IMG/VR virus record: IMGVR_UViG_3300027733_000236
Coordinates: 1 to 21,460 of that record
DNA: 21,460 bases
Source: a virus
Direction: 5' to 3' (one strand)
The notes under the pieces are model-generated. The model was not told where the DNA came from and did no database searches. It saw only the letters and a list, made by a program, of their open reading frames with translations. Position 1 is the stretch's first letter. Each line of letters begins with the position of its first letter. Position numbers and translations under genes: made by a program. Shown in pieces: positions 1 to 15,388 of this stretch.

Positions 1-20
1 ATAATATGGGAATTGTTTAA
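1..20 (+). CDS. 3' end of an upstream gene (partial)
   Basis: The frame that ends in TAA at 18-20 reads ...N-M-G-I-V-stop and shares its last base with the portal ATG (TAATG). The same overlap style recurs throughout this window, so this is probably the tail of the preceding late gene. In podoviruses the large terminase often lies just upstream of the portal, but five codons cannot show that. The identity is a guess from gene order only. Confidence 0.35.
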
Positions 21-2014
21 TGAAATTATCAGACAGCGAAATAGTAGCTAGAATAGAAGCTGAAGAAAGTAAGTCTTATGGTGTCAATGACTCACAATTG
101 TCATTTGAACGATCAGAGGCTATTAACTTTTATCTAGGCTTACCTTTTGGCAACGAAGTAGAAGGTCGTAGCCAAGTGGTATCTTATGACGTGCAAGATA
201 CTATTGAGTCTGCACTTCCACAATTACTTAAAGTCTTTGTAGCTGGTGATAAAGTTGTTACCTTTGACCCTAAAGGTCCTGAAGACCAAGATGCAGCAGA
301 TCAAGAAACTGATTATGTAAACCATGTAGTCATGGAAAAGAACGCAGGCTTTAACATATTCTATGTATGGTTTAAAGATGCCCTATTAAGTAAGAACGGA
401 TACGTCAAGGTTTATACTGAAACTGAAGACGAGATGGAAGAAGTAGAGTATAGCGGTTTAACAGACGCACAACTCCAGATGCTTGCTTCAGATGATAAGA
501 CAGAAGTATTAGAACATACCGCTTATCCTGACCCAAGTGTAGACATAGCTATGCTTCAACAACAAGCTATGATGAATAACCAAGACCCTATGTCTATCAT
601 GCAACCTATGTTACATGACGTTAAGCTCAAGGTTACAGAGAGCAAAGACAGTATTAAGATAAAGAACGTAGCACCTGAAAACATGATGGTGTCTGTAGAC
701 ACTACAGGTCCTTCACTTAATGATGCTCGTTTTGTGCAACATAGAGAACTCATGGCAGTTGCAGAAATAGCAGAAGCATTTAACCTTTCAGAGTCTAAAG
801 TGGAAGGTATCATGTCTGACATTAGAAGCGTATTTGAGCAAGAGTCTAATGCAAGAGATATTTATAGTGAGGAATTTGACAGAGCTGTAGATGAAGATGA
901 TGCACTAGTCAAAGATACTTATATTAAGATCAATGGTGAAAGATGGCGTTACGTTGTATTAGGTAACGAAATTATTTATAAAGAAAAATGCGAGTATGTA
1001 CCATTCGCTTGTATTACTCCTATGATAATGCCACATAGACACATAGGTCGTAGCTATTCAGACTTAACACAAGATATACAAATGATTAAGTCTACGCTAT
1101 TGCGTGGACAACTAGATAATATGTATCTAGCTAACAATGGTCGCTATGCCATATCAGACAGAGTAAACCTAGATGATATGCTTACATCACGCCCTGGTGG
1201 TATTGTGCGTGTTAGTGGTGAGCCTGGTTCAGCTATCATGCCATTACAGCATCCACCATTACCTGCATCTACCTTCTCAATGGTAGAGTATATGGACTCT
1301 ATGAAAGAAAAGAGAACAGGTATTACAGCATATAACCAAGGACTAGACTCTAACTCACTAAACAAGACAGCTTCAGGTGTTGCTCAAATTATGAGTGCAG
1401 CACAACAACGTATAGAGTTAGTTGCAAGAACATTCGCAGAAACAGGTGTCAAAGACTTATTCCAATTAGTCCATAGGTTAGTGAGAACAACACTTACTAA
1501 ACCTGACATTATCCGTCTACGCAATAGATGGGTAGAAGTAGACCCTAGAGAATGGAAAGCTCGTAAAGATATGTCTATCTCTGTAGGCTTGGGTGCAGGT
1601 AACAAAGACCAACAACTTATGCACTTAACCACTATCTTACAGATGCAAAAAGAAGCTATCCAAATAGGTATCACTAGCCCTGAAAAGATATACAACGCAC
1701 TTGCTAAACTGACACAGAATGCAGGCTTTAAGAACCCAGAGGAATTTTGGACTAACCCTGCTAATACACCTGAACAAGAAGGTCAGCAACAAAAGCCTAC
1801 AGAAGCAGAGATCATGGTGCAAGGTCAGCTACAGATAGAACAACAAAAAGCTCAAGCTCAAATGATGCAAGAGCAAGAACGTAGTAAGAATGATATTATT
1901 ATTGAACGTGAGAAGATTATTGCACAGGCAGAGTTAGAAAAGTTTAAAGCTCAACTGAAAGCTGAAACAGACCTAGCCATTGCACAACTTAAAGCTCAAG
2001 CAGGCATACTATGA
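20..2014 (+). CDS. Portal protein, P22-like
   Basis: This 664-residue protein should form the dodecameric ring at the capsid vertex through which DNA is packaged and ejected. Its length is close to P22-type portals (about 700 residues). The N-terminal region, with FYLGLPFGNEVEGRSQVV near residues 37-54 followed by a segment on VQDTIESALPQLLKVF, is the conserved start of portals in aquatic podoviruses. The centre holds the stretch TPMIMPHRHIGRSYSDLTQD and a stem-like region with EKRTGITAYNQGLDSNSLNK, both typical of this family. The last 65 or so residues are a Gln/Glu/Lys-rich coiled coil, consistent with the helical barrel of P22-type portals. The ATG at 20 has GGGAA at 8-12 as a likely ribosome site. 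It overlaps the preceding stop by one base and the next start by four. The call rests on family recognition and on the adjoining scaffold and capsid genes. Confidence 0.9.
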   Translation: MKLSDSEIVARIEAEESKSYGVNDSQLSFERSEAINFYLGLPFGNEVEGRSQVVSYDVQDTIESALPQLLKVFVAGDKVVTFDPKGPEDQDAADQETDYVNHVVMEKNAGFNIFYVWFKDALLSKNGYVKVYTETEDEMEEVEYSGLTDAQLQMLASDDKTEVLEHTAYPDPSVDIAMLQQQAMMNNQDPMSIMQPMLHDVKLKVTESKDSIKIKNVAPENMMVSVDTTGPSLNDARFVQHRELMAVAEIAEAFNLSESKVEGIMSDIRSVFEQESNARDIYSEEFDRAVDEDDALVKDTYIKINGERWRYVVLGNEIIYKEKCEYVPFACITPMIMPHRHIGRSYSDLTQDIQMIKSTLLRGQLDNMYLANNGRYAISDRVNLDDMLTSRPGGIVRVSGEPGSAIMPLQHPPLPASTFSMVEYMDSMKEKRTGITAYNQGLDSNSLNKTASGVAQIMSAAQQRIELVARTFAETGVKDLFQLVHRLVRTTLTKPDIIRLRNRWVEVDPREWKARKDMSISVGLGAGNKDQQLMHLTTILQMQKEAIQIGITSPEKIYNALAKLTQNAGFKNPEEFWTNPANTPEQEGQQQKPTEAEIMVQGQLQIEQQKAQAQMMQEQERSKNDIIIEREKIIAQAELEKFKAQLKAETDLAIAQLKAQAGIL

Positions 2015-2280
2015 AAGATAAAAGTTTAGAAGAAATTAAGTTAGGTGAACAAGCAGGTGTCGTATTAGAGAACCCAGCATTCATTAACGCTATGCAAGCT
2101 GTTAAAGATAACATCATCAAAGCTATGGGAACTAGCGGATTAGGTGATGAACAAACACATAACAGACTAGTGATCGCATTACAATTATTAAACCAAATAG
2201 AAAAGCAGCTTACTGATGTCATGCAGACAGGTAAGATGGCATCTATCCAAACAAGTAGTAAGTTAAAGATATTTAGGTAA
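2011..2280 (+). CDS. Small portal-adjacent phage protein, function unknown
   Basis: This 89-residue, mostly helical protein starts inside the portal stop codon (ATGA), so it is probably translationally coupled to the portal. It has no membrane segment and no catalytic motif. The pattern of an N-terminal helix around ENPAFINAMQAVKDNIIKAM, then a helix with LLNQIEKQLTDVMQTGKMAS, resembles short proteins that often sit next to podovirus portals. I know of no assigned function for them. A role in portal assembly or DNA packaging is only an inference from position. A terminator-like hairpin follows directly. Confidence 0.75.
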   Translation: MKDKSLEEIKLGEQAGVVLENPAFINAMQAVKDNIIKAMGTSGLGDEQTHNRLVIALQLLNQIEKQLTDVMQTGKMASIQTSSKLKIFR

Positions 2281-2294
2281 GGACAAGCCTACTT

Positions 2295-2319
2295 AAAGCT
2301 CACTTTAGTGAGTTTTTTT
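2295..2319 (+). terminator. Probable intrinsic terminator between portal block and scaffold
   Basis: CTCAC (2299-2303) pairs with GTGAG (2308-2312) across the loop TTTA. The pairing can be extended outward by G-T and three A-T pairs using part of the run of seven T at 2313-2319. A stem followed by a T run is the form of a rho-independent terminator. It lies in one of the two longest non-coding gaps of the window (2281-2343). Partial read-through would let scaffold and capsid be expressed from a separate or stronger transcript, but no clear promoter is visible between it and 2344. Confidence 0.65.
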
Positions 2320-2343
2320 ATTGTCTATTTTTAAGGAAATATT

Positions 2344-3324
2344 ATGAGTGACCAAGCTAATGAGCAGTCACCACAAAGTCGTTTAGAGGCTATGTTGGAT
2401 ACTGTTGAAGACCAAGACGTAATAGTTGAGGAAAAACAACCACCGGTGGAAGCTGATGAAACTGAAGTAGAAGCGGAAGCAGAAACTACAGATGAAGAAG
2501 CAACAGAAGATGCACCAGATGACCAAGCAGAAGAAGAAGGTGACTCGAAAGAGGAAACGCCTGCCTTACTAAAGCTAAAGGTAAATGGTGAGGAAATTGA
2601 AAAACCACTTGATGAAGTAGTAGCACTAGCACAACAAGGACTTGATTACACCAAGAAGACACAGGAAGTAGCAGAACAACGTAAGGAACTTGAAGCATAC
2701 TCACAGAACATAAAGGTTCAAGAGGAAAACTTTAGGCAACAAGTTGAGCTACAAAATATGTTAATTGGTGAAATAGCACAAATTACAGCACTAGACCAAC
2801 AACTGAACCAATATGCTAACGTGAATTGGAATCAGTTATCTGATAGTGACTTTGTAGAAGCGCAAAAACTTTTCTTTACATATAACCAGCTACAGCAAGA
2901 ACGTAGCACATTAGTTTCACAGTTTGAAGCCAAAAAGCAGGAAGTCGTTAGTAAGCAGACGCAATTGATGCAAGAGAAGATCGCAAAAGGAAAAGAGTCT
3001 TTAGCCAAAGAGATACCAGGATGGAGTCAACAGACTACCCAAGACCTATTATCTACCGGTAAGGATTATGGCTTTTCAGATGCAGAACTCAATTCAATTG
3101 TTGACCCTCGTCACGTGAAGGTACTGCATGACGCTATGCAATGGCGCAAACTACAACAGAACTCTAGTGTAAAGAAAAAAGTATCTAGCGCAAAGCCGGT
3201 AGTGAAACCTGGTTCAAAAGATACACAAACGCAGGCAAGTTCTAATGCGAAGAAGATGCGTGATTCGTTACGCTCAACTGGCAAACAAGAATTTGCTCAA
3301 CAACTTATCGAACAGATGATCTAG
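2344..3324 (+). CDS. Capsid scaffold protein
   Basis: This 326-residue protein should direct procapsid assembly from inside the shell and then leave. Residues from about 20 to 75 are extremely acidic (runs of Glu, Asp and Ala), with no globular look. They are followed by the segment LKLKVNGEEIEKPLDEVVAL, a module common at this point in phage scaffold proteins, then a long Gln/Glu-rich coiled coil to about residue 225. The C-terminus turns basic (KKKVSSAKPVVKPGSK), as expected for the capsid-binding end of scaffolds. It lies directly before the capsid gene, separated by 10 bases. The ATG at 2344 is preceded by AAGGA at 2333-2337. The family is poorly conserved, so the assignment rests on composition, architecture and position. 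Confidence 0.85.
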   Translation: MSDQANEQSPQSRLEAMLDTVEDQDVIVEEKQPPVEADETEVEAEAETTDEEATEDAPDDQAEEEGDSKEETPALLKLKVNGEEIEKPLDEVVALAQQGLDYTKKTQEVAEQRKELEAYSQNIKVQEENFRQQVELQNMLIGEIAQITALDQQLNQYANVNWNQLSDSDFVEAQKLFFTYNQLQQERSTLVSQFEAKKQEVVSKQTQLMQEKIAKGKESLAKEIPGWSQQTTQDLLSTGKDYGFSDAELNSIVDPRHVKVLHDAMQWRKLQQNSSVKKKVSSAKPVVKPGSKDTQTQASSNAKKMRDSLRSTGKQEFAQQLIEQMI

Positions 3325-3334
3325 GAGAAATATT

Positions 3335-4288
3335 ATGGCAGTAGCCTTAACCAATAGTTATAACGGAAAGGGAATTGCAGAGTCTTTTGAAGATGTTATT
3401 TTTGACATCTCACCAGAAGATACTCCGCTACTTTCAACAGCAAAAAGAACGACAGCAGGACAAACTTACCATCAATGGCAAACAGACTCATTAGCAGCAG
3501 CCGCAGCTAACGCACAGCTTGAAGGTCTTGATAGTACATACGCAACATTAAATGCAACAACTGTGTTAGGAAACTATACACAAATTTCAGCAAAAACTGT
3601 TAAAATTTCTGGCACTTATGACGTAGTTAAAAAATATGGTCGTAAGTCAGAAGTAGCTTATCAACTTATGAAAGCTGGTAAAGAACTTAAACGTGACATG
3701 GAATATGCGTTAGTTCGTAACCAAGCATCATCAGCAGGTGGCGCAGGTACAGCTAGAACTTCAGCAGGTATTGAGTCATGGATTGTCAACAGAGTATTAG
3801 CAACAGGCTCTACAGCAGGTTCAACACCTGGCTTTTCAGGTGGAACAGTTGCAGCTCCAACAGATGGTACAGCTTCAACATTTGTAGAAGCAGACTTAAA
3901 GTCAGCATTACAATTAGCATGGGTAGATGGTGGCGAACCAACACTCGTTCTTATGAGTGCAACTAACAAAGCACGTTTTAGTGCTTTTTCTGGTATCACA
4001 ACGAAGTTTAATAATGTAAGAGATAGTTCACAAGCTACTATTACTGGAGCTGCTGATATGTACACTAGCGACTTTGGTAATCATACTGTGAAACTTGATC
4101 GCTTCATGCGTGATTCTGCTGTATTAGCAGTTGACCCTAACTATGTTAGTGTTGCTACTTTACGCCCTATGGCTAAAGAAGAACTTGCTAAAACAGGTGA
4201 CTCACAAAACTGGCTTTTAACAACAGAATATGCTTTAGTTGTTAATAACCCAGATGCACACGCAAAAGTGCAAAACACAGGTGCATAG
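3335..4288 (+). CDS. Major capsid protein, SU10-like (DUF5309-type)
   Basis: This 317-residue protein is the likely shell subunit (HK97 fold). The N-terminus, with the stretch FDISPEDTPLLSTAKRTTAG and then YHQWQTDSL, is the hallmark of the capsid family typified by phage SU10 (DUF5309). The segment KISGTYDVVKKYGRKSEVAY followed by KAGKELKRDMEYALV fits the spine helix region. The C-terminal part with VLAVDPNYVSVATLRPMAKE is also typical. It follows the scaffold, and a strong AGGAGA site lies just before the ATG, in keeping with very high expression. A stable hairpin follows the stop codon. No cleavage site or protease gene is evident in the window. Confidence 0.92.
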   Translation: MAVALTNSYNGKGIAESFEDVIFDISPEDTPLLSTAKRTTAGQTYHQWQTDSLAAAAANAQLEGLDSTYATLNATTVLGNYTQISAKTVKISGTYDVVKKYGRKSEVAYQLMKAGKELKRDMEYALVRNQASSAGGAGTARTSAGIESWIVNRVLATGSTAGSTPGFSGGTVAAPTDGTASTFVEADLKSALQLAWVDGGEPTLVLMSATNKARFSAFSGITTKFNNVRDSSQATITGAADMYTSDFGNHTVKLDRFMRDSAVLAVDPNYVSVATLRPMAKEELAKTGDSQNWLLTTEYALVVNNPDAHAKVQNTGA

Positions 4289-4303
4289 TAATTAAGATGT
4301 GAT

Positions 4304-4335
4304 ATAGTAGGGGGAGTTAATCCTCCCTCTATTAT
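4304..4335 (+). terminator. Stable hairpin after the capsid gene, possible leaky terminator
   Basis: ATAGTAGGGGGAG (4304-4316) can pair with CTCCCTCTATTAT (4323-4335) as a 13-bp stem with two G-T wobbles, leaving the loop TTAATC. The downstream side is T/A-rich (TTATATT) but is not a clean T run. Position and strength suggest attenuation after the highly expressed capsid gene. An mRNA-stabilising 3' end or control of the next gene's translation are alternatives. The right arm ends seven bases before the next ATG. Confidence 0.6.
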
Positions 4336-4342
4336 TTATATT

Positions 4343-4669
4343 ATGCCAATACTATTTGATTATGACAAAGTGACAGGTATTACACAGCACTTTGACTATG
4401 ACCCAATTACAGATATGATACATCTCACAAGCACTCAAGATGTAAGTGCTATATTAGATGACATACAACGGAAAAGAAATAACCCTGAAGCATGGGCTAA
4501 AGGTGTTAAGGAATCATGGGCGCATTACGCTACTATTCCTACTATAGTGGAAATGGAACTAAAGAAAAAGGGTATAGATATATATAACCCACACCAAACA
4601 AAAGAACTTATAAAAGAAATAAATACTAACTATCCATATCTAAAAACTACAACAGCAAAGCATGGATAA
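4343..4669 (+). CDS. Small conserved phage protein, function unknown
   Basis: This 108-residue soluble protein starts with FDYDKVTGITQHFDYDPITD, continues with a segment reading STQDVSAILDDIQRKRN, then has the stretch YATIPTIVEMELKKKGIDIY. I recognise this pattern from small proteins encoded between capsid and tail genes in several podoviruses. They have no assigned role that I know of, though the position suggests head completion. No Shine-Dalgarno sequence lies in the usual window before the ATG. The only purine-rich run (GGGGGAG) is about 27 bases upstream, inside the hairpin. The stop overlaps the next gene's start by eight bases. Confidence 0.75.
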   Translation: MPILFDYDKVTGITQHFDYDPITDMIHLTSTQDVSAILDDIQRKRNNPEAWAKGVKESWAHYATIPTIVEMELKKKGIDIYNPHQTKELIKEINTNYPYLKTTTAKHG

Positions 4670-5984
4670 AAAAGAATTACAACAGATACAACTTGCTATA
4701 CATGATCTCATACAAAAAGAAGACTATGAGAACGCATACCCACTTATCAATACCATATTAGAAATATATCCTAATGATGCAGCAACCTTAAATTTTTTAG
4801 GTTACATTTGGCTCATGGGTGATAAGCCAGCATTTGCTTATCAGTTATTTCGTAGAGCATTACAAGAGCAACCAGGCAACAAAGCATTATGGACTTCACT
4901 AGGTCGTGCTTGCCATGAACTAGATATGTTTGATGATGCTATTAAATACTTCTTAAAGTCAGCAGAATTAGACCCTACTTATGCACTAGCTTATGCTAAT
5001 GGTGCAGCTTCATTGGTGCAGTTATCAAGATGGGAAGATGCAGAGAAGTCAGCAAAGATGGCTTTGGAATGCGACCCTAACGAACTACACGCACAGTTAA
5101 ACCTAGCTCATAGTTACCTAGCTACAGGTGCATGGGATAAGGGATGGAATGAATGGAACAAGTCATTAGGTGGTAAGTTTAGAAAAGAACTCACCTATGG
5201 TGATGAACCTAGATGGGATGGTTCTAGTGGTAAAGACTTAATTATCTATGGTGAACAAGGTTTAGGTGATGAGATATTCTACGCATCATGTATCCCAGAC
5301 GCTATTAAGATCAGTAAGAAAGTCTATATAGACTGTGATGAAAGACTAGAAACATTATTTAGACGTAGCTTTCCTACAGCAGAAGTGCATGGCACTCGTA
5401 AAGAACAAAGTGTTGAATGGTTAGACGGAGTTGTTTTTGATGCAAGAGTGGCTATCGGTGGATTACCACAATTCTTTAGACATACTAATAAAGACTTCCC
5501 AGGCTCACCTTATCTAGTGGCAGATAAAGATAAAAGAATTATGTGGCGAGCATTGTTTGACTCATGGGGTAAAACAGTTATAGGTATCACCACTAAAGGT
5601 GGAACATTTAGAACTAATGCTAAAGGTCGTAACCTAACGCAAGACGATATAGCACCACTATTAAAACTTAAAGATACAGTATTAGTAAGCCTAGACTACA
5701 ACGTAGATACACCATTAGAAGGTGTTAAATACTTCCCTTCTGTTGCAGACTCTAAAGACTATGATGATATAGCAGCTCTGATAGCAGAATGTAATATGGT
5801 CATAGGGGTTAATACTACAGCTTTACATTGTAGTGCCGCTATGGGCGTTAAAACATGGTGTCTAGTGCCTAAATATCACCAATGGCGTTATGCTCAAGTA
5901 AGTATGCCTTGGTATAGACACATGAGGCTTATCTACCAAGACGATAGAACATGGAAAGAAGTTATTGAACAACTTAATATCTGA
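4662..5984 (+). CDS. TPR protein with GT9/GT41-like glycosyltransferase domain
   Basis: This 440-residue protein has two parts. Residues of about 19-165 contain three to four TPR units, with helix pairs around NPRY-like spacing such as ALWTSLGRACHELDMFDDAI and LAYANGAASLVQLSRWEDAE. From about residue 190 a glycosyltransferase-like domain begins: IIYGEQGLGDEIFYAS at about 194-209 matches the conserved EQGLGD motif of heptosyltransferase/O-GlcNAc-transferase-like proteins. VIGVNTTALHCSAAMGVKTW near 380-399 matches the usual donor-binding (D/N)TxxxHxxxAxG segment, and MPWYRHMRLIYQ near 415 is the standard end motif. The usual Asp of DTxxxH is Asn here. The likely role is sugar transfer to a virion protein or host surface glycan, but donor and acceptor are unknown. 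It is soluble, and its start lies within the previous gene. It sits in the head-to-tail operon beside a methyltransferase, suggesting a paired role. Confidence 0.8.
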   Translation: MDKKELQQIQLAIHDLIQKEDYENAYPLINTILEIYPNDAATLNFLGYIWLMGDKPAFAYQLFRRALQEQPGNKALWTSLGRACHELDMFDDAIKYFLKSAELDPTYALAYANGAASLVQLSRWEDAEKSAKMALECDPNELHAQLNLAHSYLATGAWDKGWNEWNKSLGGKFRKELTYGDEPRWDGSSGKDLIIYGEQGLGDEIFYASCIPDAIKISKKVYIDCDERLETLFRRSFPTAEVHGTRKEQSVEWLDGVVFDARVAIGGLPQFFRHTNKDFPGSPYLVADKDKRIMWRALFDSWGKTVIGITTKGGTFRTNAKGRNLTQDDIAPLLKLKDTVLVSLDYNVDTPLEGVKYFPSVADSKDYDDIAALIAECNMVIGVNTTALHCSAAMGVKTWCLVPKYHQWRYAQVSMPWYRHMRLIYQDDRTWKEVIEQLNI

Positions 5985-6477
5985 CGAATATAGGGAAATG
6001 CAGGCAAAACTGCATGAAAACCCTGGCTATGGTGTAGCAAGTTTAGCTTATGCACCACTTGTAGACCTAGTGATAAAGGAAAACAAAGTAAGATACCTAT
6101 TAGACTATGGCGCAGGCAAATGTAGGCTAAAAGATGCAATTAAAGAAGAAGTCAAATACACAGCTTATGAGCCTAGTAATGAATTATGGGCATCTATTCC
6201 TGAACCTACAGAGTTTGTGGCTTGTATAGACGTGCTAGAGCATATAGAGCCTGAATTATTAGATAATGTATTAGATGATCTACAACGAGTCACTATGAAA
6301 TATGGCTTATTTACTATACATACTGGACCTGCTGTTAAAGTTTTACCAGATGGGCGTAATGCACACCTTATTCAAGAACCACTATCATGGTGGGAAAACA
6401 AAATTAAATTAAGATTCACAATAATTAAACAAGTAGGTATGCCTGATGGTTGTATCTTCTTTGTTAAAAAAGGATAA
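5965..6477 (+). CDS. Class I SAM-dependent methyltransferase
   Basis: The 170-residue product has a Rossmann-type motif I, LLDYGAGKCRLKDAI, near residues 45-59, an acidic strand end with AYEPS, and ACIDVLEHIEPELLDNVLDD near 87-106, the standard post-II/motif IV region of class I methyltransferases. The stretch VLPDGRNAHLIQEPLSWWEN is characteristic of a phage-associated subgroup of unknown substrate. The start is uncertain. TTG at 5965 overlaps the upstream stop by 20 bases and keeps the N-terminal SDEYREMQAKLHE segment, which resembles related proteins. ATG at 5998 would give 159 residues, but AGGGA lies only two bases from it. The target could be a sugar made or transferred by the upstream gene's product, a protein or DNA. 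There is no DPPY or similar DNA-methylase signature. Confidence 0.82.
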   Translation: MNNLISDEYREMQAKLHENPGYGVASLAYAPLVDLVIKENKVRYLLDYGAGKCRLKDAIKEEVKYTAYEPSNELWASIPEPTEFVACIDVLEHIEPELLDNVLDDLQRVTMKYGLFTIHTGPAVKVLPDGRNAHLIQEPLSWWENKIKLRFTIIKQVGMPDGCIFFVKKG

Positions 6478-6479
6478 AC

Positions 6480-7094
6480 ATGGCATTCACTTCATATACG
6501 ACTTTTATAGCGGTAGTCGCAGACTATTTAGCTAGGACAGACCTTACCAGTCAAATACCTGACTTCGTAAACCTAGCACAAAATAGAATGAGTCGTGACT
6601 TACGAGTAAGACAAATGCTAAAGGTAGCCACAGCAGCTACTACAGGTGGTGATAGCACAGTCGCTTTACCTTCTGACTATTTAGAGCTTAAAGAAATACA
6701 TATTACAGGTAACCCACCTAAAAATTTAGAGTTTCAATCACCTGACTTATTCTTTCGTAATGGTCAAATAGCAAACTCTGGTTTACCTACTAAATTTACA
6801 ATACTCGCAGAAGAATTCCAATTCTCACCTGCACCGGATGGCACATATACAGTACAAATGCTTTATTACGCTAAACCAACCTTTATCTCTAGCTCTACAG
6901 CAAGCAATTTATTTCTAGCTTATTTCCAAGATGCTTTACTGTATGCAACATTAGGTGAAGCTGAACCTTATCTACTTAATGATGCAAGAACACAAACGTG
7001 GTCTGCCTTGTATGACAGAGCAATTAGTAACATTATTAGTAGTGATCTTGGTGGAACATATCCTAGTACTTCATTAAACGTAACAACACAATAA
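6480..7094 (+). CDS. Head-tail adaptor protein, SU10-like
   Basis: The product (204 residues) should bind below the portal ring and connect it to the tail nozzle. The N-terminal helices, with TSQIPDFVNLAQNRMSRDLR at about residues 23-42, then a central beta segment VALPSDYLELKEIHI and a C-terminal helical region with LAYFQDALLYATLGEAEPYL, form the pattern of the common podovirus adaptor family (as in SU10). An AAAGGA site precedes the ATG, which lies two bases after the upstream stop. Together with the DUF5309-type capsid protein and the P22-like portal, this indicates a short-tailed virion. Confidence 0.85.
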   Translation: MAFTSYTTFIAVVADYLARTDLTSQIPDFVNLAQNRMSRDLRVRQMLKVATAATTGGDSTVALPSDYLELKEIHITGNPPKNLEFQSPDLFFRNGQIANSGLPTKFTILAEEFQFSPAPDGTYTVQMLYYAKPTFISSSTASNLFLAYFQDALLYATLGEAEPYLLNDARTQTWSALYDRAISNIISSDLGGTYPSTSLNVTTQ

Positions 7095-7103
7095 GGAATT
7101 ATC

Positions 7104-7490
7104 ATGGCTGAAATGTCGAATTTTTTGGAAAATGCGTTAGTAAATGCAACTCTACGAAACACAACCTATACATCACCCGCTACAGTATATGTAGCATTAT
7201 TTACTACAGACCCAACAGATGCAGCATCAGGCACAGAAGTTACTGGCGGTTCTTATGCTAGAACATCCGTTGCTTTTGCTGCACCTTCTAATGGAGCTGC
7301 TGCAAGTAGTGCTGACTGCACTTTCCCAACTTGCACATCTACATGGGGAACAGTAAGTCATATAGGTATATTTGACGCATCTACATCAGGAAACCTTTTA
7401 TATCACACGCCTTTAGATACATCTAAAACAATTGAAACTGGTGATATATTCAAGATAGCTTCAGGTAGTTTAACAGTTACATTGGCTTAA
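7104..7490 (+). CDS. Small beta-rich virion protein, widespread tail/fibre-associated family
   Basis: This 128-residue protein is almost all predicted beta-strand. The sequence TVYVALFTTDPTDAASGTEV, then GGSYARTSVAFAAPSNG, then TSTWGTVSHIGIFDASTSGN, ending TGDIFKIASGSLTVTLA, matches a family found in many phages and often labelled tail-fibre or minor structural protein. I know of no proven role. Its position, just after the adaptor and before the fibre genes, fits a virion decoration or fibre-attachment protein. An AAGGA site lies at 7092-7096. The next gene starts one base after the stop. Confidence 0.75.
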   Translation: MAEMSNFLENALVNATLRNTTYTSPATVYVALFTTDPTDAASGTEVTGGSYARTSVAFAAPSNGAAASSADCTFPTCTSTWGTVSHIGIFDASTSGNLLYHTPLDTSKTIETGDIFKIASGSLTVTLA

Positions 7491-7491
7491 T

Positions 7492-8463
7492 ATGCCTACG
7501 CCATTAACGCTAGAACAACTAGACGTCTATGGTAGTTTAGAAAGTGTCCCATATAGTTTAGACCATAACTTCTATACTGGTAAAGTATGTGGACCTTGGA
7601 CATTAGACGAGTTAGATGCCTTTGGTAGTTTAGATAGTTTAGTCTTATCATTAGACGATACTCTATGGACTACTGGTGCTTGTATTAATTTATCAGCAGG
7701 TATCGTAACCGCTAGTGCAACCGCTAGTACTTCTGCTAATAGAGTAAGAACAGGTATAGGAAGTGTAACAGCTACAGGCACAGTTATTTCTAGTGGAAAT
7801 AGAATTGCTGCTGGTGTAGGTTCTGTTACTGCTAACGCATTTTTAGAGTCAAATGGTAGTAAAATTACAGGTGGCATAGGTTCAATAACTGCTACTGCTA
7901 CTGCAACATCTAACGCCAATAGGGTTAGAGCAGGGCTAGGAAGCATCACAGGCAACGCTACAATAGTAGCTAATGGTAATGCTATTTTTAAGAGTAATGG
8001 TACTATAAATGGCACAGCAACAACCACAGGAAGTTGTAATAGAATTAGGTCAGGCGTTGGAGTTATCGCTTCTACAGGAACAGTAACTTCTAATAGTGTT
8101 AGGACAAGAACTACATCAGGTTCTATATCAGCAACAGCAACAACAACTGCATTAGGTGGCTTTACTGCATCAGGAGCAGGTAGTATTAGTGCAACAGCAT
8201 TAGCTTCATGTAGTGCAAAAGCAATATTTGCAGGTGTAGGTCGTATTTCAAGTCTAGCATCTCTAACCGCTATAGGTTATAGACTAGGTGAGGAATGGTC
8301 TACTTCTACCGCAGGCACAGAAACATGGTCTACAGTTTCAGCAGGTGTAGAAACTTGGACAAATGTAACAGCAGGAACAGAAACATGGAGTGATATAGCA
8401 GTAGGCTCTAACACTTGGACAGACACTTCTTCTAGTAGTAACACATGGCTTCAACAAGGATAA
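7492..8463 (+). CDS. Three-tier repeat protein, putative fibre or virion surface protein
   Basis: This 323-residue protein is nearly all repeats. Residues 5-30 and 36-62 are two copies of a motif of the form LxxLDxxGSLxSxxxSLDxxxxTG, 31 residues apart. Residues 66-266 hold about ten copies of a 20-residue unit, G(I/V/L)GS(V/I)TATAT.....NR(V/I).., nearly all without gaps. Residues 267-323 hold six copies of a 10-residue unit centred on TW, with Trp at 269, 279, 289, 299, 309 and 319. The 20-residue period rich in Gly, Thr, Ser, Ala and Val suggests a beta-solenoid or trimeric beta-fibre shaft, but this is inference. There are no enzyme motifs. No clear Shine-Dalgarno precedes the ATG, so it may be translated by re-initiation from the gene one base upstream. 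The first motif recurs in the nozzle protein at 13759-13833. Confidence 0.75.
   Translation: MPTPLTLEQLDVYGSLESVPYSLDHNFYTGKVCGPWTLDELDAFGSLDSLVLSLDDTLWTTGACINLSAGIVTASATASTSANRVRTGIGSVTATGTVISSGNRIAAGVGSVTANAFLESNGSKITGGIGSITATATATSNANRVRAGLGSITGNATIVANGNAIFKSNGTINGTATTTGSCNRIRSGVGVIASTGTVTSNSVRTRTTSGSISATATTTALGGFTASGAGSISATALASCSAKAIFAGVGRISSLASLTAIGYRLGEEWSTSTAGTETWSTVSAGVETWTNVTAGTETWSDIAVGSNTWTDTSSSSNTWLQQG
7504..7677 (+). repeat. Two copies of an LDxxGSLxS motif (31-residue spacing)
   Basis: The translated copies are at 7504-7581 (LTLEQLDVYGSLESVPYSLD onward) and 7597-7677 (WTLDELDAFGSLDSLVLSLD onward). Each ends in aromatic-x-x-G. The spacing is 93 bases. A third, diverged copy is found in another gene at 13759-13833. 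Confidence 0.8.
7687..8289 (+). repeat. About ten tandem 60-bp units coding 20-residue repeats
   Basis: After a first partial unit, copies starting GIGSVTATG, GVGSVTANA, GIGSITATA, GLGSITGNA, SNGTINGTA, GVGVIASTG, TSGSISATA (one residue short), SGAGSISATA and AGVGRISSLA follow at 20-residue steps. The DNA copies are diverged, so this is an old amplification kept by selection on the protein, not recent slippage. Confidence 0.8.
8290..8460 (+). repeat. Six tandem 30-bp units coding 10-residue Trp repeats
   Basis: Units of the form (E/N)TW(S/T)xxxAGx repeat with a Trp exactly every ten residues to the C-terminus. The core ACATGG / ACTTGG is seen in most copies. This looks like a separate C-terminal module, perhaps a tip or multimerisation segment. 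Confidence 0.8.
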
Positions 8464-8477
8464 ATTAAGGACTCAAC

Positions 8478-9341
8478 ATGGCAAAGACAAAAATTTCAGA
8501 ATACTCAACAACCGCTGCAAGTAATACGGATATTGATAGCACCGATATTAATGAGGGATGTGCGCCTTCAGGGATAAACAACGCTATACGTTCCCTAATG
8601 GCTCACCTAGCTGTAGACTATAACGCTACACAAGCCTATACCACTACAGCAACTGCGGCAGGTACAACTACACTTACTGCATCTAGCACACTATTACAAT
8701 TCTTTACAGGCTCTACCACACAAACAGTCGTATTACCTGTAGTAAGTACATTAGCAACAGGACAACGCTACGAGATACATAATAACTCGTCAGGTGCTAT
8801 TACAGTAAACTCATCAGGCTCAAACCTAGTGGCTACTGTCCCAGCAGGCGTTACCACAGTTTGCACTTGTATCTTAATCACAGGCACAACTGCTGCTTCT
8901 TGGGATGCTGACATACAAGGCTTCACGACTACACTTCCAGTAGCTCAAGGTGGTACAGGATCAACAACTTTAGCAGGTGCTAACATAGCGGTTCTTAATT
9001 CTGCACAAACATTTACAGCAGCACAACGAGGCACAATTACTGTCTTAACAGATGGTGCTACTATTACACCTGACTTTGCTGTGACTAATAATTATTCAGT
9101 TACACTCGGTGGCAATAGAACTTTAGCAAACCCTACTAACATTACTGCTGGACAAAGTGGTTCTATCTTTGTATCACAAGATGGCACAGGTTCACGCACA
9201 CTAGCTTATGGCACTTACTGGGACTTTGCTGGTGGCACAGCACCTACATTATCAACTGCTGCTTCTTCTGTAGACCGAATAGACTATGTAGTCAGAACTG
9301 CGACTTCTATCCATGCAGTATTTACCGCTAATTATAGTTAA
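8478..9341 (+). CDS. Tail fibre protein
   Basis: The 287-residue product starts with KISEYSTTAASNTDIDSTDI and GCAPSGINNAIRSLMAHLA, the standard N-terminal module of many phage fibres, probably for attachment to the virion. A beta-rich middle part ends in AQGGTGSTT (about residues 155-163), a repeat motif common in fibre shafts. The C-terminal domain with LGGNRTLANPTNITAGQSGS then IFVSQDGTGSRTLAYGTYWD is a widespread fibre head domain. It should take part in host recognition. An AAGGA site precedes the ATG. There is no enzymatic or endosialidase-type chaperone domain, so trimerisation would be intrinsic or helped by another protein. Confidence 0.85.
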   Translation: MAKTKISEYSTTAASNTDIDSTDINEGCAPSGINNAIRSLMAHLAVDYNATQAYTTTATAAGTTTLTASSTLLQFFTGSTTQTVVLPVVSTLATGQRYEIHNNSSGAITVNSSGSNLVATVPAGVTTVCTCILITGTTAASWDADIQGFTTTLPVAQGGTGSTTLAGANIAVLNSAQTFTAAQRGTITVLTDGATITPDFAVTNNYSVTLGGNRTLANPTNITAGQSGSIFVSQDGTGSRTLAYGTYWDFAGGTAPTLSTAASSVDRIDYVVRTATSIHAVFTANYS

Positions 9342-9350
9342 GGATTACGA

Positions 9351-11825
9351 ATGTCAATTATTGGCTCAAATATATTAGCAGGTGCTAGTGGACAAGCAGG
9401 ATATAACCTAAACAACTCACTTCGCTTTAGAAGTAGTGCATCTGCTTACCTATCAAGAACATTTACAACCCCAACAGATAGCAAAAAATTTACATTAAAT
9501 ATGTGGGTTAAACTTGGGTATATTAGTCCTGGCGGTGGTTCAACAGGTTGGAAGTCTTTATTTGGAAATTCAACACTTATTGGATTTGGAACATCTGACC
9601 TAGACAACTATCCTTTAGTTCAAGCAAAAGCAACACAATTAATATTTAGTGACTCAACATCTTCTATAGCATGGACTCCTTTACTTCGTGATCCATCTGC
9701 ATGGTATATGATGACACTTGTATATGACTCAACACAGGCAACTGCCGCAAATAGAATAGTTTGTTATTTAAATGGCACGCAACTTTCTGTTCAAAATGGC
9801 TCATATCCAACATTGAATCTTGCATCACAATTTAATATTGCTAGTTCAATTAATAGTTTTGGTAGGTCAGCAAATACTACTTCTTTCTTTGACGGTTACA
9901 TGGCTGAAATAAACTTTGTAGACGGACAAGCCTTAACACCATCATCATTCGGCGAAACCGATACAACCACAGGTTCATGGAAACCTAAAGCCTACACAGG
10001 CACTTATGGCACTAATGGGTTCTACCTTAAATTCTCTGACATAGCTACTACATCAGGTTCTAATGCAGGTTTAGGTAAAGACTTTAGTGGTAATGCAAAC
10101 TACTGGACTACTAATAACATATCTGTTACATCAGGCACAACATATGATGCTATGCTAGATGTGCCTACTAATACAAGTGCGACTGTGGCTAATTATGCTG
10201 TTATTAACCCATTAACAAATAGTTCTTATTCAACATTATCAAGTGGAAATTTACAAACATACGGTAATACTGCAACAGATAGTTCAAATTCAAGAAGTTC
10301 TATAGCATTTACTTCAGGTAAATATTATATGGAATTTACAGTAACTGGGTCATCTGCTTTAGGAAATACATATCCTCAGTATGGTATTGTAGCTGCAGTA
10401 GATGGAAGTTCCCCTAACAATGGACTTCCTCAAGTTGGTGCGACATCAGGAATGCTTTATCCAAATAATTCTGTTGCTTATGTTTCAAGTGGTAACAAAA
10501 AAACAAACAATACTGTAACTTCTTATGGCAGTTCATTTACAACAGGGGATGTTATTGGATTAGCAATTGATGCTGATAATGGAGCAATTTATTTTAGTAA
10601 AAACAATACTTGGCAAAACAGTGGAGTTCCTACAAGTGGCTCATCTAAAACAGGTGCTGCTTTAAGCTGGACAGGTGCAAGCATAGAACTTCTTATAGCT
10701 AATTCTGAATACAATGGCTCTGGCTCACATGCTAACTTTGGTCAAAGACCATTCTCTTACACACCACCTACAGGCTTTGTAGCACTAAACACATATAACC
10801 TACCTACCCCTACTATATTACAGGGTAATAAGTATATGGATGCTGTTACTTATAATGGTAGCAATTCAAACCTTACTGTAACAAATGCTGGTAGTTTTCA
10901 ACCAGACTTGGTATGGGCAAAGTCAAGAAGTGGTGCATATAATAATATTTTAGTAGATGCAATTAGAGGTGGTAATTTATATTTATCTTCAAATACAACA
11001 ACAGCTGACACAACATCAACTGGACTAGCTACATTTACAAGTACTGGTATAACATGGATAGGTGGAGCTTCTGGTGTTAATGCTAGTGGCGATACTTATG
11101 TAGATTGGATGTGGAAAGGTGGTAATGGAACATCATCTAACACTTCAGGCTCTATTACATCTACTGTATCTGTAAACACAACTGCTGGGTTTAGTGTGGT
11201 GACTTATACAGGTAATAACACAAATGGTGCAACAGTAGGTCATGGGCTTGGCGTTGCTCCAGCAATGATTATTACAAAAGTAAGAAGCACTACAAGTAGT
11301 TGGTGGGTATATCAAAAGGCTATGGGTGACAATACTATGGCACTCAATACAACTGCTGCACAAATAGCATCTACAGGAAATGGTGTTTACAACACAGCAA
11401 GCTTTACTTCTAATGTATTTGCACTTGGAGCTGGGGTTATTAACGGAAGCGGTGCAACTCATGTTTCATATTGCTGGGCAGAAATAGCAGGGTTTAGTAA
11501 GTTTACGAGCTATACTGGTAATGGTAGTACTGACGGACCATTTATTTTTCTTGGCTTCCGCCCTAAATTTGTAATGATTAAACGCACAGACTCTACTAAT
11601 GATTGGAATATGTATGACAGTAGAATTGGTGCATATAATGTCATTGATGAATTATTAAAAGCTAACACATCTGCCGCTGAAACAACTTATTACACTTATG
11701 GAATTGACTTTTTAAGTAATGGCTTTAAATTAAGAGAAACTGATACAGGTCAAAACGCTTCAGGCGGCACATATATAGTAGCTGCATTTGCAGAGAACCC
11801 ATTTAAGAATAGTAATGCACGTTGA
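9351..11825 (+). CDS. Large adhesin: LamG-like, SPRY-like and triplicated C-terminal domain
   Basis: At 824 residues this is the largest product here. Residues of about 15-210 form a concanavalin A/LamG-like sandwich (FTLNMWVKLGY, then a DGYMAEINFVDGQALTPSSF ending), a domain common in phages of aquatic bacteria. Residues of about 267-485 look like a SPRY domain (SGKYYMEFTVTG; TTGDVIGLAIDADNGAIYFS followed by KNNTW). Residues of about 488-823 contain three units, each built as YTGN...GxxP..(V/I)..K.RS...W...T..A...TYV...W.E. Their P-K cores are PDLVWAKSRS, PAMIITKVRS and PKFVMIKRTD. The likely role is receptor or glycan binding on the virion surface. Related phage proteins carry this C-terminal part as a domain of unknown function (I believe DUF7483). 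A TAAGGA site precedes the ATG. The stop overlaps the start of the next gene (TGATG). Confidence 0.82.
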   Translation: MSIIGSNILAGASGQAGYNLNNSLRFRSSASAYLSRTFTTPTDSKKFTLNMWVKLGYISPGGGSTGWKSLFGNSTLIGFGTSDLDNYPLVQAKATQLIFSDSTSSIAWTPLLRDPSAWYMMTLVYDSTQATAANRIVCYLNGTQLSVQNGSYPTLNLASQFNIASSINSFGRSANTTSFFDGYMAEINFVDGQALTPSSFGETDTTTGSWKPKAYTGTYGTNGFYLKFSDIATTSGSNAGLGKDFSGNANYWTTNNISVTSGTTYDAMLDVPTNTSATVANYAVINPLTNSSYSTLSSGNLQTYGNTATDSSNSRSSIAFTSGKYYMEFTVTGSSALGNTYPQYGIVAAVDGSSPNNGLPQVGATSGMLYPNNSVAYVSSGNKKTNNTVTSYGSSFTTGDVIGLAIDADNGAIYFSKNNTWQNSGVPTSGSSKTGAALSWTGASIELLIANSEYNGSGSHANFGQRPFSYTPPTGFVALNTYNLPTPTILQGNKYMDAVTYNGSNSNLTVTNAGSFQPDLVWAKSRSGAYNNILVDAIRGGNLYLSSNTTTADTTSTGLATFTSTGITWIGGASGVNASGDTYVDWMWKGGNGTSSNTSGSITSTVSVNTTAGFSVVTYTGNNTNGATVGHGLGVAPAMIITKVRSTTSSWWVYQKAMGDNTMALNTTAAQIASTGNGVYNTASFTSNVFALGAGVINGSGATHVSYCWAEIAGFSKFTSYTGNGSTDGPFIFLGFRPKFVMIKRTDSTNDWNMYDSRIGAYNVIDELLKANTSAAETTYYTYGIDFLSNGFKLRETDTGQNASGGTYIVAAFAENPFKNSNAR
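10813..11820 (+). repeat. Three diverged tandem domain copies in the adhesin
   Basis: Copies lie at about 10813-11127, 11181-11475 and 11487-11820. Shared landmarks are YTGN or YNGS near the start, a Gly-aromatic-x-Pro then xxxKxR core, and an end with YVDWMWKGG, HVSYCWAEIAG or YIVAAFAENPF. The copies are clear in protein but not obvious in DNA. Confidence 0.65.
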
Positions 11826-12289
11826 TGCCTAAAAAAATAAACATTATTGGTAAAAAGTTTAATAGATTAACTGTATTAGAAAAAGTTGATGCAGGTAAAT
11901 ATCAATATAAATATTTATGTCAATGTGAGTGTGGTAATAAAAAGATAATTCAAAGCACTTGTATTATTCAAGGCACAACAAAGTCATGTGGTTGTATCAA
12001 GACTGAAATGCTTGTTAAAAAGAATTATAAGCATGGTAAAAGCCATACTTCTGCATATAAATGTGCTTGGTCAAGAGTAATGCACATGAAGCGTAAGTTT
12101 AGATTACCTCAATGGGCAGATGTTGAAGCTATTAGACAGTTTTATATGAACAAACCACAAGGATGTGAAGTAGACCATATAATACCTTTAAGTGGTAAAA
12201 CAGTATCAGGACTTCATGTATTAGAAAATTTACAGTATCTAACCATTGCAGAAAATAGAAGTAAAAATAACAAATTTATAGGAGTGTAA
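11825..12289 (+). CDS. HNH endonuclease with N-terminal Cys-rich module, homing type
   Basis: The ATG at 11825 forms TGATG with the upstream stop and gives 154 residues; a TTG one codon earlier is possible. The N-terminal part carries IIGKKFNRLTVLEK, then Cys32, Cys34, Cys36-Gly and Ser-Cys55-Gly-Cys57, a probable zinc-binding module that recurs in phage homing endonucleases of the HNH and AP2 types. The C-terminal part is an HNH fold: VDHIIPL with Asp117-His118, then SGLHVLENLQYL with Asn135, and Asn144 with the KNN end. It should nick or cut a specific DNA site. It is the only clearly non-virion gene inside the fibre block and probably a mobile passenger spreading to phages that lack it. 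It is intact, with all core residues present. DNA-packaging HNH proteins lie next to terminase instead, so that role is unlikely. Confidence 0.85.
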   Translation: MPKKINIIGKKFNRLTVLEKVDAGKYQYKYLCQCECGNKKIIQSTCIIQGTTKSCGCIKTEMLVKKNYKHGKSHTSAYKCAWSRVMHMKRKFRLPQWADVEAIRQFYMNKPQGCEVDHIIPLSGKTVSGLHVLENLQYLTIAENRSKNNKFIGV

Positions 12290-14175: not shown

Positions 14176-14993
14176 TGGCTCGTGATATGTACCGCAAGCT
14201 AAACCCTACAGGTTCAGAGCCTAGAGATATTAGCACAGTTGTAAATGGATTAATAGAAGGCAAGTCTAACAACACAGGTGAAATTACTTTAGCTGCTAGT
14301 GGTGCTACAACTACAACCATTAGTGATGAACGTATAGGTTTTAATTCTGTAGTATTACTAATGCCAACTACAGCTACTGCTGCTAGTACAACGTATGCTG
14401 AATTTCCTTATGGTGCATGGCAAGATAGCACAACACAGTCAGCAGCAAGTACGACTACAGCATATCCTATTACATTTAATACTGTAGACTATGAAAATGG
14501 TATTGTATTACAAAGCACATCACAATTAAGAGCTACTTATGCTGGATTATATAACCTTCAGTTTAGCTTTCAATTATCTAACCTAGCCAACTCTACAGAA
14601 GATGTAGATGTATGGTTTAGAGTAAATGGTACAGATGTTCCAAAGTCTAATAGCATATTTGGTTTAGCACCTAGAAAAAATCCTAGTGACCCATATCATA
14701 TAATTGCATCTATGAACTTTTTTGTTTCATTAGCTGCTACAGACTATGTGCAGATTATGTGGAGAGCATCTAGTACAGACGTTACTATTAAAGCTCAAGC
14801 AGCACAAACATCACCTACTAGACCAACAACACCTAGTGTTATTGCTACTATGCAATATGTATCAGATGGTGGTTATTCTAGTGGTTTATTTGGTGGAGTA
14901 TATGTAAGTTCTACATCTAGTGGAAGTGCTGTTATTACACATCCAGCTAATACATTAACAGACAAGATATACAAGTATATAATAGTAGGATGA
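14175..14993 (+). CDS. Fibre/receptor-binding protein with C1q/TNF-like jelly roll
   Basis: The 272-residue product starts with RKLNPTGSEPRDISTVVNGL then IEGKSNNTGEITL, an attachment module seen at the start of several phage fibres and spikes. Residues of about 100-235 look like a C1q/TNF-type jelly roll. Strands around LRATYAGLYNLQFSFQLSN lead into DVDVWFRVNGTDVPKSNS, then SMNFFVSLAATDYVQIMWRA and a closing ATMQYVS. Such domains form trimers in bacterial and phage surface proteins. The last part, rich in Ser, Gly and Thr, is short. It probably contributes to host binding. The start overlaps the nozzle stop (TAATG) and its stop overlaps the next ATG (ATGA). Confidence 0.75.
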   Translation: MARDMYRKLNPTGSEPRDISTVVNGLIEGKSNNTGEITLAASGATTTTISDERIGFNSVVLLMPTTATAASTTYAEFPYGAWQDSTTQSAASTTTAYPITFNTVDYENGIVLQSTSQLRATYAGLYNLQFSFQLSNLANSTEDVDVWFRVNGTDVPKSNSIFGLAPRKNPSDPYHIIASMNFFVSLAATDYVQIMWRASSTDVTIKAQAAQTSPTRPTTPSVIATMQYVSDGGYSSGLFGGVYVSSTSSGSAVITHPANTLTDKIYKYIIVG

Positions 14994-15388
14994 TATTACA
15001 CTACATACCTAAAGATAAGTTACGAGAACATTGGGACTATGTTAAACATGGTCTTGAATTAGTAAGGCAACATGGTCATACACAATGGATAGTAGAAGAT
15101 GTCTATTGTGACTGTTATGAAAACAGGTCTATGTTATTTGTAGGTCTAGTGGATAACAAAGCAGTAGGTTTTGTAGTATTACAACCTATAGGTGACACAC
15201 TTCATGTCTGGGCTACATGGTCTACACTTAATGACCAAACATTATTTTATCAAGCATGGCAAGAAATACAACAAATAGCAAAACAAGGTGGTAAGTCTAG
15301 GGTTACATTTTCATCTCAACGTAAGGGATGGGAACGTAAAGCTAGATCATTAGGTTTTAAACCTCAAACATGGGAATTTACACTTTAA
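14990..15388 (+). CDS. GNAT-fold-like protein, probably non-catalytic virion protein
   Basis: This 132-residue protein shows the strand order of a GNAT acetyltransferase: SMLFVGLVDNKAVGFVVLQP as the beta2-beta3 hairpin, DTLHVWATWS as beta4, a helix, then RVTFSSQRKGWERKARSLGF and a terminal strand TWEFTL. The acetyl-CoA-binding (Q/R)xxGx(G/A) loop is not seen after beta4, so catalysis is doubtful. T7 gp13, encoded just before the ejection proteins gp14-16, has a comparable GNAT-like look. The same position here suggests a virion-assembly role, but this is analogy. It starts within the previous gene's stop codon (ATGA). Confidence 0.6.
   Translation: MILHYIPKDKLREHWDYVKHGLELVRQHGHTQWIVEDVYCDCYENRSMLFVGLVDNKAVGFVVLQPIGDTLHVWATWSTLNDQTLFYQAWQEIQQIAKQGGKSRVTFSSQRKGWERKARSLGFKPQTWEFTL

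Follow-up and report, generated by a model that had tools for sequence, protein, structure and literature searches.

The segment at positions 4662-6477 of a 21,460-base virus record (IMGVR_UViG_3300027733_000236, from an SU10-type phage; the window, hereafter, is this whole stretch) carries two genes, one for a protein that joins tetratricopeptide repeats (TPR) to a glycosyltransferase (GT) domain, here called TPR-GT, and one for a methyltransferase (MT). In relatives from IMG/VR, the TPR-GT gene is fixed at this place in the head operon, and the slot between it and the adaptor gene is an exchangeable cassette. We consider it rather probable that the locus forms the centre of a stepwise O-glycosylation pathway, encoded by the phage and acting in the cytosol, whose substrate is at least one virion protein.

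The plus-strand order in the window is portal, scaffold, major capsid protein (MCP), p108, TPR-GT, MT, adaptor and more virion-type genes. An earlier, sequence-only reading of this DNA had placed the two enzymes between the capsid-side genes and the adaptor, and the SU10-type MCP and adaptor do flank them. Both open reading frames (ORFs), at 4662-5984 and 5965-6477, are intact and do overlap, where that reading had them overlapping or nearly so; the TPR-GT gene shares 8 nucleotides (nt) with the upstream p108 gene, and the MT gene starts inside the TPR-GT gene, with a 20-nt overlap. Given that the order MCP-p108-TPR-GT-MT-adaptor is found in tens of contigs, the arrangement is not due to chance. 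The features are as follows.

3335 to 4288, plus strand: SU10-type MCP (PF17236, E 3.7e-90), context
4343 to 4669, plus strand: p108, a conserved upstream neighbour of 108 amino acids (aa; phrog_3982), left border marker of the slot
4662 to 5984, plus strand: TPR-GT gene, 440 aa, ATG at 4662 to the stop at 5984, fixed first gene of the slot
4668 to 5171, plus strand: TPR array, residues 3-170, putative acceptor-binding part (Pfam TPR models, AlphaFold helices)
5184 to 5981, plus strand: GT domain, residues 175-440, GT9/heptosyltransferase-like by NCBIfam and BFVD likeness
5259 to 5276, plus strand: GLGDEI motif, residues 200-205, with G200, G202, D203, E204 and I205 invariant in nine divergent phage proteins
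5960 to 6480, no strand assigned: exchanged segment, with flanks 96% identical in nucleotides to contig L004, which has a type II cassette between them
5965 to 6477, plus strand: class I S-adenosylmethionine (SAM) methyltransferase gene, 170 aa, TTG at 5965 to the stop at 6477, cassette type I
6097 to 6120, plus strand: LLDYGAGK, which we take to be SAM-binding motif I; L46, D47 and G49 invariant in 19 sequences
6343 to 6366, plus strand: LPDGRNAH, MT family signature in 19 sequences
6480 to 7094, plus strand: SU10-type adaptor (PF24175, E 7e-33), right border marker of the slot

Relatives were collected by three IMG/VR scans, with the TPR-GT (best 80 of 200 relatives), the MT (best 80 of 570) and the adaptor (best 80 of 277), the last being a sample not chosen by GT or MT. 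The slot set kept 151 loci including the window, and 120 distinct contigs have both the TPR-GT and the adaptor; the near-identical L002, loci sharing a contig with a longer one, and L141-L145 were left out. Among the adaptor-seeded contigs the TPR-GT lies upstream in 58 of 80, and the remaining 22 stop no more than 1,567 nt from it, which, given the cassettes, is too near to reach the TPR-GT (20 of the 22 show a cassette gene). It is present in 58/58 adaptor-seeded contigs that reach far enough upstream.

The gene that follows is far more variable. In the 120 contigs the slot holds the window-type MT (83), a GT9-like gene with one for a 237-aa protein (17), an FkbM methyltransferase with a 206-aa protein (11), the 206-aa protein alone (1), or an MT about 40% identical to that of the window together with the GT9-like and 237-aa proteins (8), frequencies that are biased toward the MT by the many contigs that came via the MT query. 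The sequence-only reading had regarded the two genes as a pair and proposed to check whether they always occur together. They do not: the window-type MT is found in 83/120 contigs and in 33 of the 58 adaptor-seeded contigs with the TPR-GT, and its replacement in 37/120 contigs that retain the GT rules out an obligate unit. At least one recognised methyltransferase or GT9 gene lies in the slot of 119 of the 120 contigs, the exception being the one with the 206-aa protein only. When representatives were scanned, the FkbM protein (PF05050, fkbM_fam) and the cassette GT9 (PF01075) scored over cut-offs, and the second cassette MT belongs to phrog_24759. The 237-aa and 206-aa proteins gave no Pfam match; the latter is perhaps a GT32-like putative glycosyltransferase, a guess by eye from a DTDM stretch. 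Among 20 contigs that carry other cassettes, 5 have an MT relative, in each case the divergent MT of their own cassette type, and the cassette GT9 was not found in 20 type I contigs, in a search without a positive control. In one type I contig an additional ORF of 199 aa (L026:3505-4104) separates the MT from the adaptor; by eye only, it is GIY-YIG homing-endonuclease-like.

Close relatives carry the marks of replacement at the DNA level. Window and L004 are 96% identical over positions 1-5960 of the window and again over 6480-8983, with different cassettes between, and other contig pairs also break near the end of the GT gene and the start of the adaptor. In contigs L066 and L174, for instance, identity is 99.4% in 1,460 nt before the GT, 90.9% in the GT itself and 97.4% beyond the slot, and the cassettes differ. 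On a tree of MCP and adaptor from the 64 contigs in which both are long enough, the four cassette states require no fewer than 11 changes, against a possible minimum of 3; the mean with shuffled labels is 16.3 changes, and none of 200 shuffles was as low as 11. Cassettes therefore appear to be inherited for a time and then replaced. As to whether the GT is inherited together with the cassette, its divergence in excess of that of MCP, p108 and adaptor is slightly larger in pairs with different cassettes (median 0.018, 73 pairs) than in the others (median 0.009, 166 pairs), in a comparison of 52 contigs that ignores their relatedness.

A second insertion point lies at the overlap of the p108 stop and the GT start (window 4660-4669), where at least 13 loci have 134-723 nt (e.g., L005:3544-3678, L055:2344-2953 and L196:3191-3914). 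By eye, these inserts are small variable ORFs joined via short repeated TGG-type stop/start junctions.

The TPR-GT itself has a clear repeat half and a more divergent catalytic half. Its repeats match PF13431 (E 5.2e-13), and the AlphaFold model (mean predicted local distance difference test score, pLDDT, 87; predicted template modelling score, pTM, 0.79) has ten helices across residues 3-168 followed by an alternating strand-helix part. The TPR plus glycosyltransferase architecture suggested by the sequence-only reading is thus borne out by the TPR profiles and by Foldseek, whose top solved structures over the whole chain are two O-glycosyltransferases of proteins that themselves bear TPRs, SPINDLY (SPY) and OGT (E 1e-10). 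In these rows the TM-score over the query (TMq) is 0.31-0.43, the root-mean-square deviation (rmsd) exceeds 10 Å and identity is 9-15%, and in VIA-align the low-rmsd rows cover mainly the TPR half.

Of the GT9-GT41-like label given earlier, it is the first part to which the GT domain leans. NCBIfam heptosyltransferase III (heptsyl_trn_III) matches the GT domain in 15/16 members (best E 2.5e-4, 20.2 bits, under the curated cut-off of 170.2), and the GT9 profile PF01075 gives 11.5 bits against a cut-off of 22 on the window protein (P0001) and matches 10/23 members at E up to 1 (best E 0.0048). By predicted fold, the named BFVD proteins that match the TPR-GT best include one with TPRs from cyanophage S-SRM01 (TMq 0.74); those matching the GT part include A0A6J5PAN8 (GT9; TM-score over the target, TMt, 0.65), A0A6J7WHE7 (RfaF; TMt 0.58) and phage proteins named Aah/TibC. 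A search of the GT domain against PDB sequences gave no match at E up to 10, and hhalign with the cassette GT9 gave a probability of 22%. Glyco_transf_41, which we take to be the sequence profile of GT41, is absent from the 16 Pfam families matching P0001 at E up to 1 and from the 25 of 39 Pfam families listed for 23 TPR-GT members; membership of GT41 is rejected on sequence and kept as an architectural likeness. Given the heptosyltransferase profile matches and the GT9, RfaF and Aah/TibC fold matches, we lean toward a GT9-like domain joined to a TPR array, with GT9/heptosyltransferases as nearer relations than GT41.

Conservation speaks for a working enzyme. Besides the GLGDEI motif, whose D203 is presumably the counterpart of the GT9 catalytic Asp, the positions invariant in the same nine divergent proteins include S236-P238, R323, T385 and R409-Y410. 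The Asn-for-Asp change (N384) singled out earlier is less notable than it seemed, as it is Asn in at least 90% of 23 clade members and Pro, Cys or Gln in other relatives. It could be argued that the TPR-GT is a virion component, structural or adhesin-like, that has lost its activity, and that the slot is merely a tolerant insertion site. In Sinorhizobium phage phiM5 the MCP-adaptor interval holds a GDSL/SGNH hydrolase gene (L207:2373-3683) whose product is annotated as particle-detected, and there is the second insertion site just before the GT. We find this scarcely credible in view of motifs invariant across nine divergent proteins and slot partners that are mostly recognisable carbohydrate-type genes rather than random cargo.

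The TPR-GT, read as an active enzyme, probably attaches a sugar to a protein. The TPR array is the putative acceptor-binding part, and no membrane-helix-like segment was found in nine proteins checked (highest KD19 1.52). The closest working analogue is FlmG of Caulobacter crescentus, a cytosolic flagellin O-glycosyltransferase of TPR plus GT-B architecture whose N-terminal domain binds the acceptor (PMC7591256). The TPR-GT resembles it in having N-terminal TPRs, a C-terminal GT part (by likeness only) and no membrane segment, and FlmG too modifies subunits of a large assembly; FlmG differs in having 596 residues, a flagellin acceptor and pseudaminic acid, whereas the TPR-GT has 440 aa and lies in a phage head operon. 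By analogy, FlmG may serve as a working precedent for the pathway. OGT and SPINDLY (GT41) share the combination of TPR and glycosyltransferase and lead the whole-chain matches, but the window protein has no Glyco_transf_41 match, TMq is low and GT9 is the family to which its GT domain inclines. The heptosyltransferases of GT9, and Aah/TibC, which act on proteins, are close in weak profile matches and predicted fold; the TPR-GT, however, falls under the curated cut-offs and has a fused TPR array, and a heptose donor would be hypothetical. A scan of cellular genome contigs for relatives kept one weak match, from Planctomycetota.

The second gene is a class I SAM methyltransferase by profile (phrog_24759 methyltransferase, E 1.9e-16; Pfam Methyltransf_23 weakly, E 2.9e-4, under cut-off), by predicted fold (pLDDT 93.5, with class I methyltransferases as Foldseek matches) and by motif I, in agreement with the sequence-only reading. 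The second-ranked Foldseek match is EvdMO1, solved with S-adenosylhomocysteine (SAH) and D-fucose. The signature LPDGRNAH has L127, D129, G130, N132, A133 and H134 invariant and P128 and R131 nearly so. The homology begins upstream of the first in-frame ATG, and the TTG start codon is conserved in 106 of 107 matched loci (some contigs counted more than once), although the TPR-GT frame also constrains these bases. From the gene context, the MT would methylate a glycan in the window phage. Among distant MT relatives, found with a Caulobacter phage MT, 13/21 loci have a recognised carbohydrate gene in the fetched stretch, several of the 13 being near-copies; the recurrent neighbour Ccr_b has no Pfam match and was not counted, and counting it would give 15/21. 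In L220 (3280-6123), where the capsid is of another type (PF19821), an MT relative lies close by, preceded by an unknown gene for 199 aa and followed by one for 204 aa; this may be a comparable slot in a separate lineage of phages.

A third enzyme appears in longer contigs. In the long contig of L004 a GT8-like gene (PF01501, E 1.3e-4, slightly under cut-off) immediately precedes the terminase genes on the same strand, and such a gene is present in 14 of 18 longer contigs spanning three of the four main cassette classes, its position having been read in the L004 contig only. Of the four contigs in which it is missing, three start only at the scaffold or capsid gene, and L023 lacks a portal match in its stretch; both FkbM-class contigs sampled start at the scaffold gene. 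All seven contigs with a divergent TPR-GT (MW202512, L222, L224 and L234-L237) have both an MT and a GT8 nearby, so that the association is old, with the proviso that L222 and L224 were found through the MT and are not independent of it. An adaptor match follows the TPR-GT in six of the seven, and the L236 contig stops there. Among Caulobacter jumbo phages, CcrColossus included, GT8 relatives adjoin MT relatives with a GT9 next. Stenotrophomonas phage DLP_6 has, besides an MT and a GT8 relative, one more gene annotated as a glycosyltransferase. The combination of GT9-like, GT8-like and MT genes recurs in divergent podoviruses and Caulobacter jumbo phages.

Cassette replacements that contain a recognised MT or GT9 (36 of the 37 contigs), together with the GT8-like gene, fit stepwise building of a glycan better than a two-gene unit. 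From gene content, domain architecture, conservation, cassette exchange and predicted folds we infer a scheme for the activity, donor, step order, acceptor, timing and benefit of the pathway. In this scenario, the TPR array would hold the acceptor virion protein as it is made, the GT9-like domain would add the first sugar from a nucleotide-sugar donor, and the GT8-like enzyme encoded elsewhere in the genome would add a further sugar. The slot gene or genes would finish the glycan, in the window by methylation and in relatives by other methyltransferases and/or glycosyltransferases. A finishing cassette that can be swapped between conserved genes would allow close relatives to show different glycans on nearly the same particle. 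The neighbouring genes suggest late expression of the slot genes.

Candidate acceptors include the proteins encoded at 7104-11825, the MCP and the adaptor. The sequence-only reading had pointed to Ser/Thr-rich proteins downstream, and four proteins at 7104-11825 indeed have a Ser+Thr content of 26-31%, versus 20% in the MCP or adaptor. In the contigs closest to the window the MCPs are 91-97% identical to its own (84% for a short piece in L006, 100% in L002), and the scaffold proteins, where present, are 99-100% identical; in L004, L005, L007, L008, L070 and L074 the MCP is 91-97% and scaffold and portal 98-100% identical, and the MCP changes of the L004 group are clustered in residues 209-262. 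This extra divergence was considered as a sign that the MCP is the acceptor and was rejected, since contigs with the same cassette differ too and no TPR-GT-specific insertion is seen by eye.

That missing MCP insertion is one of several points that weigh against virion glycosylation by this locus. MW202512 carries the enzymes with an MCP that aligns poorly, and the GT domain reaches no curated GT-family cut-off. The GT8-like gene is not seen in the window, a 21-kb fragment. The stretches of DLP_6 and Mosig that were covered have GT clusters without head genes, and 8 of the 21 distant MT loci have no recognised carbohydrate gene in the fetched stretch. The TPR-GT is also dispensable for related heads: in Venkman, the top-ranked isolate by adaptor (56.5%), the adaptor comes straight after p108, whose counterpart there is also phrog_3982, and in MJing1 one gene of 321 nt lies between the two. 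With the TPR-GT profile, only MW202512 matched among 15 named phage records searched whole. Two spring-water phages have, at the slot position, one annotated glycosyltransferase gene that is weakly Anp1/GT21-like.

The main competing explanation is that the enzymes modify the host surface, lipopolysaccharide (LPS) or capsule, against superinfection or against re-adsorption of progeny to debris. Such a function has been proposed (PMC7029224) for the host recognition cluster of pelagimyophages, an island of 44.6 kb on average read as host LPS modification, in which variable GT genes lie inside the structural region and GT8 is the most represented GT family; it is a large island, however, and the slot here is compact, with one fixed TPR-GT and discrete alternative cassettes. 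The GT domain does resemble LPS heptosyltransferases, and in L004, where the cassette is another one, the large protein of 9351-11825 is likewise replaced by a different one, so that surface and recognition genes may change together. Against this, the flanks stay 96% identical across the swap and the proteins at 7104-8460 are 97.7-97.8% identical between window and L004, the TPR array suggests a protein partner, membrane-like segments are lacking in the nine proteins checked, and the genes lie, overlapping, inside the head operon. We regard modification of the host surface as unlikely, while giving it serious consideration.

If a protein is the partner, it could instead be a non-virion protein of host or phage, such as flagellin, pilin or RNA polymerase, that is glycosylated and methylated in the course of infection. 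FlmG modifies flagellin, and the partner of the TPR part is unreadable from sequence; the adaptor-adjacent position, though, is kept in very divergent phages (L222, L224, L234, L235 and L237) and favours a virion partner, and we think a non-virion target improbable. Hypermodification of phage DNA with glycosylated, methylated bases is more improbable still. The L004 contig encodes thymidylate-synthase-like and weakly kinase-like proteins and a dCMP deaminase, which can belong to base-modification pathways, but the thymidylate-synthase-like gene is found in only 3 of the 18 longer contigs, all of which have the TPR-GT, and for that reason we rate this explanation lower; the head-operon position, the TPR array and the swappable finishing genes argue in the same direction. 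These L004 genes lie in a row (L239:9165-12483) of methyltransferase, PRA-PH-like, weakly kinase-like with a weak uracil-DNA glycosylase (UDG) match, thymidylate-synthase-like and dCMP deaminase proteins, a possible base-modification set.

For glycosylation of virion proteins, more tentatively, we can imagine a phage counterpart of O-serotype switching, in which a conserved TPR-GT and GT8 core with recombining finishing cassettes would give several glycan coats on nearly the same capsid. Selection would then come from whatever recognises virions: host surface factors, grazers or adsorbing matrices. We place this extension below the pathway itself.

Virion glycosylation in phages is already known. 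To our knowledge, it has been documented for few phages. Among the open-licence papers listed, screened by titles and the starts of abstracts, none described a phage head operon in which a TPR-glycosyltransferase is joined by cassettes that can be exchanged. In mycobacteriophages, phage GTs have been connected with glycans that capsid and tail tube subunits carry (Freeman et al. 2023, as cited in PMC12619734 and PMC11256854). These phage-encoded glycosyltransferases are likewise tied to virion glycans, but the GT genes of Maravista are located toward the 3' end of its genome, and a fixed head-operon slot or cassette exchange is not described in the excerpts of those papers. Chlorovirus PBCV-1 also combines virus-encoded glycosyltransferases with a methyltransferase (A064R) that caps the capsid glycan (PMC7019647); it differs in being an algal virus with an N-glycan on Vp54 and one three-domain protein.

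The locus predicts virion glycosylation for a lineage recovered many times in IMG/VR and names the TPR-GT as the enzyme likely to choose the acceptor. With the exchange of cassettes, the phages may be altering the sugars displayed on their particles. As cassettes are swapped naturally while the background hardly changes, what phage glycans do would be open to direct test, and the recurring GT9-like, GT8-like and MT genes could help to spot such pathways elsewhere, including in cultured Caulobacter phages.

Other genes of the window differ in how constant they are. A 132-aa protein encoded after the virion genes (14990-15388) weakly matches GNAT acetyltransferases (E 0.086, under cut-off); its L004 copy is 99% identical and has no GNAT match, and MW202512 has an annotated acyltransferase at a similar place. 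The window encodes an 824-aa protein at 9351-11825 and a weakly HNH-like 155-aa protein at 11822-12289, and the L004 contig has as their counterpart (L238:8185-11228) an 808-aa glycine-rich protein and a 205-aa 2-oxoglutarate-Fe(II) (2OG-Fe(II)) oxygenase.

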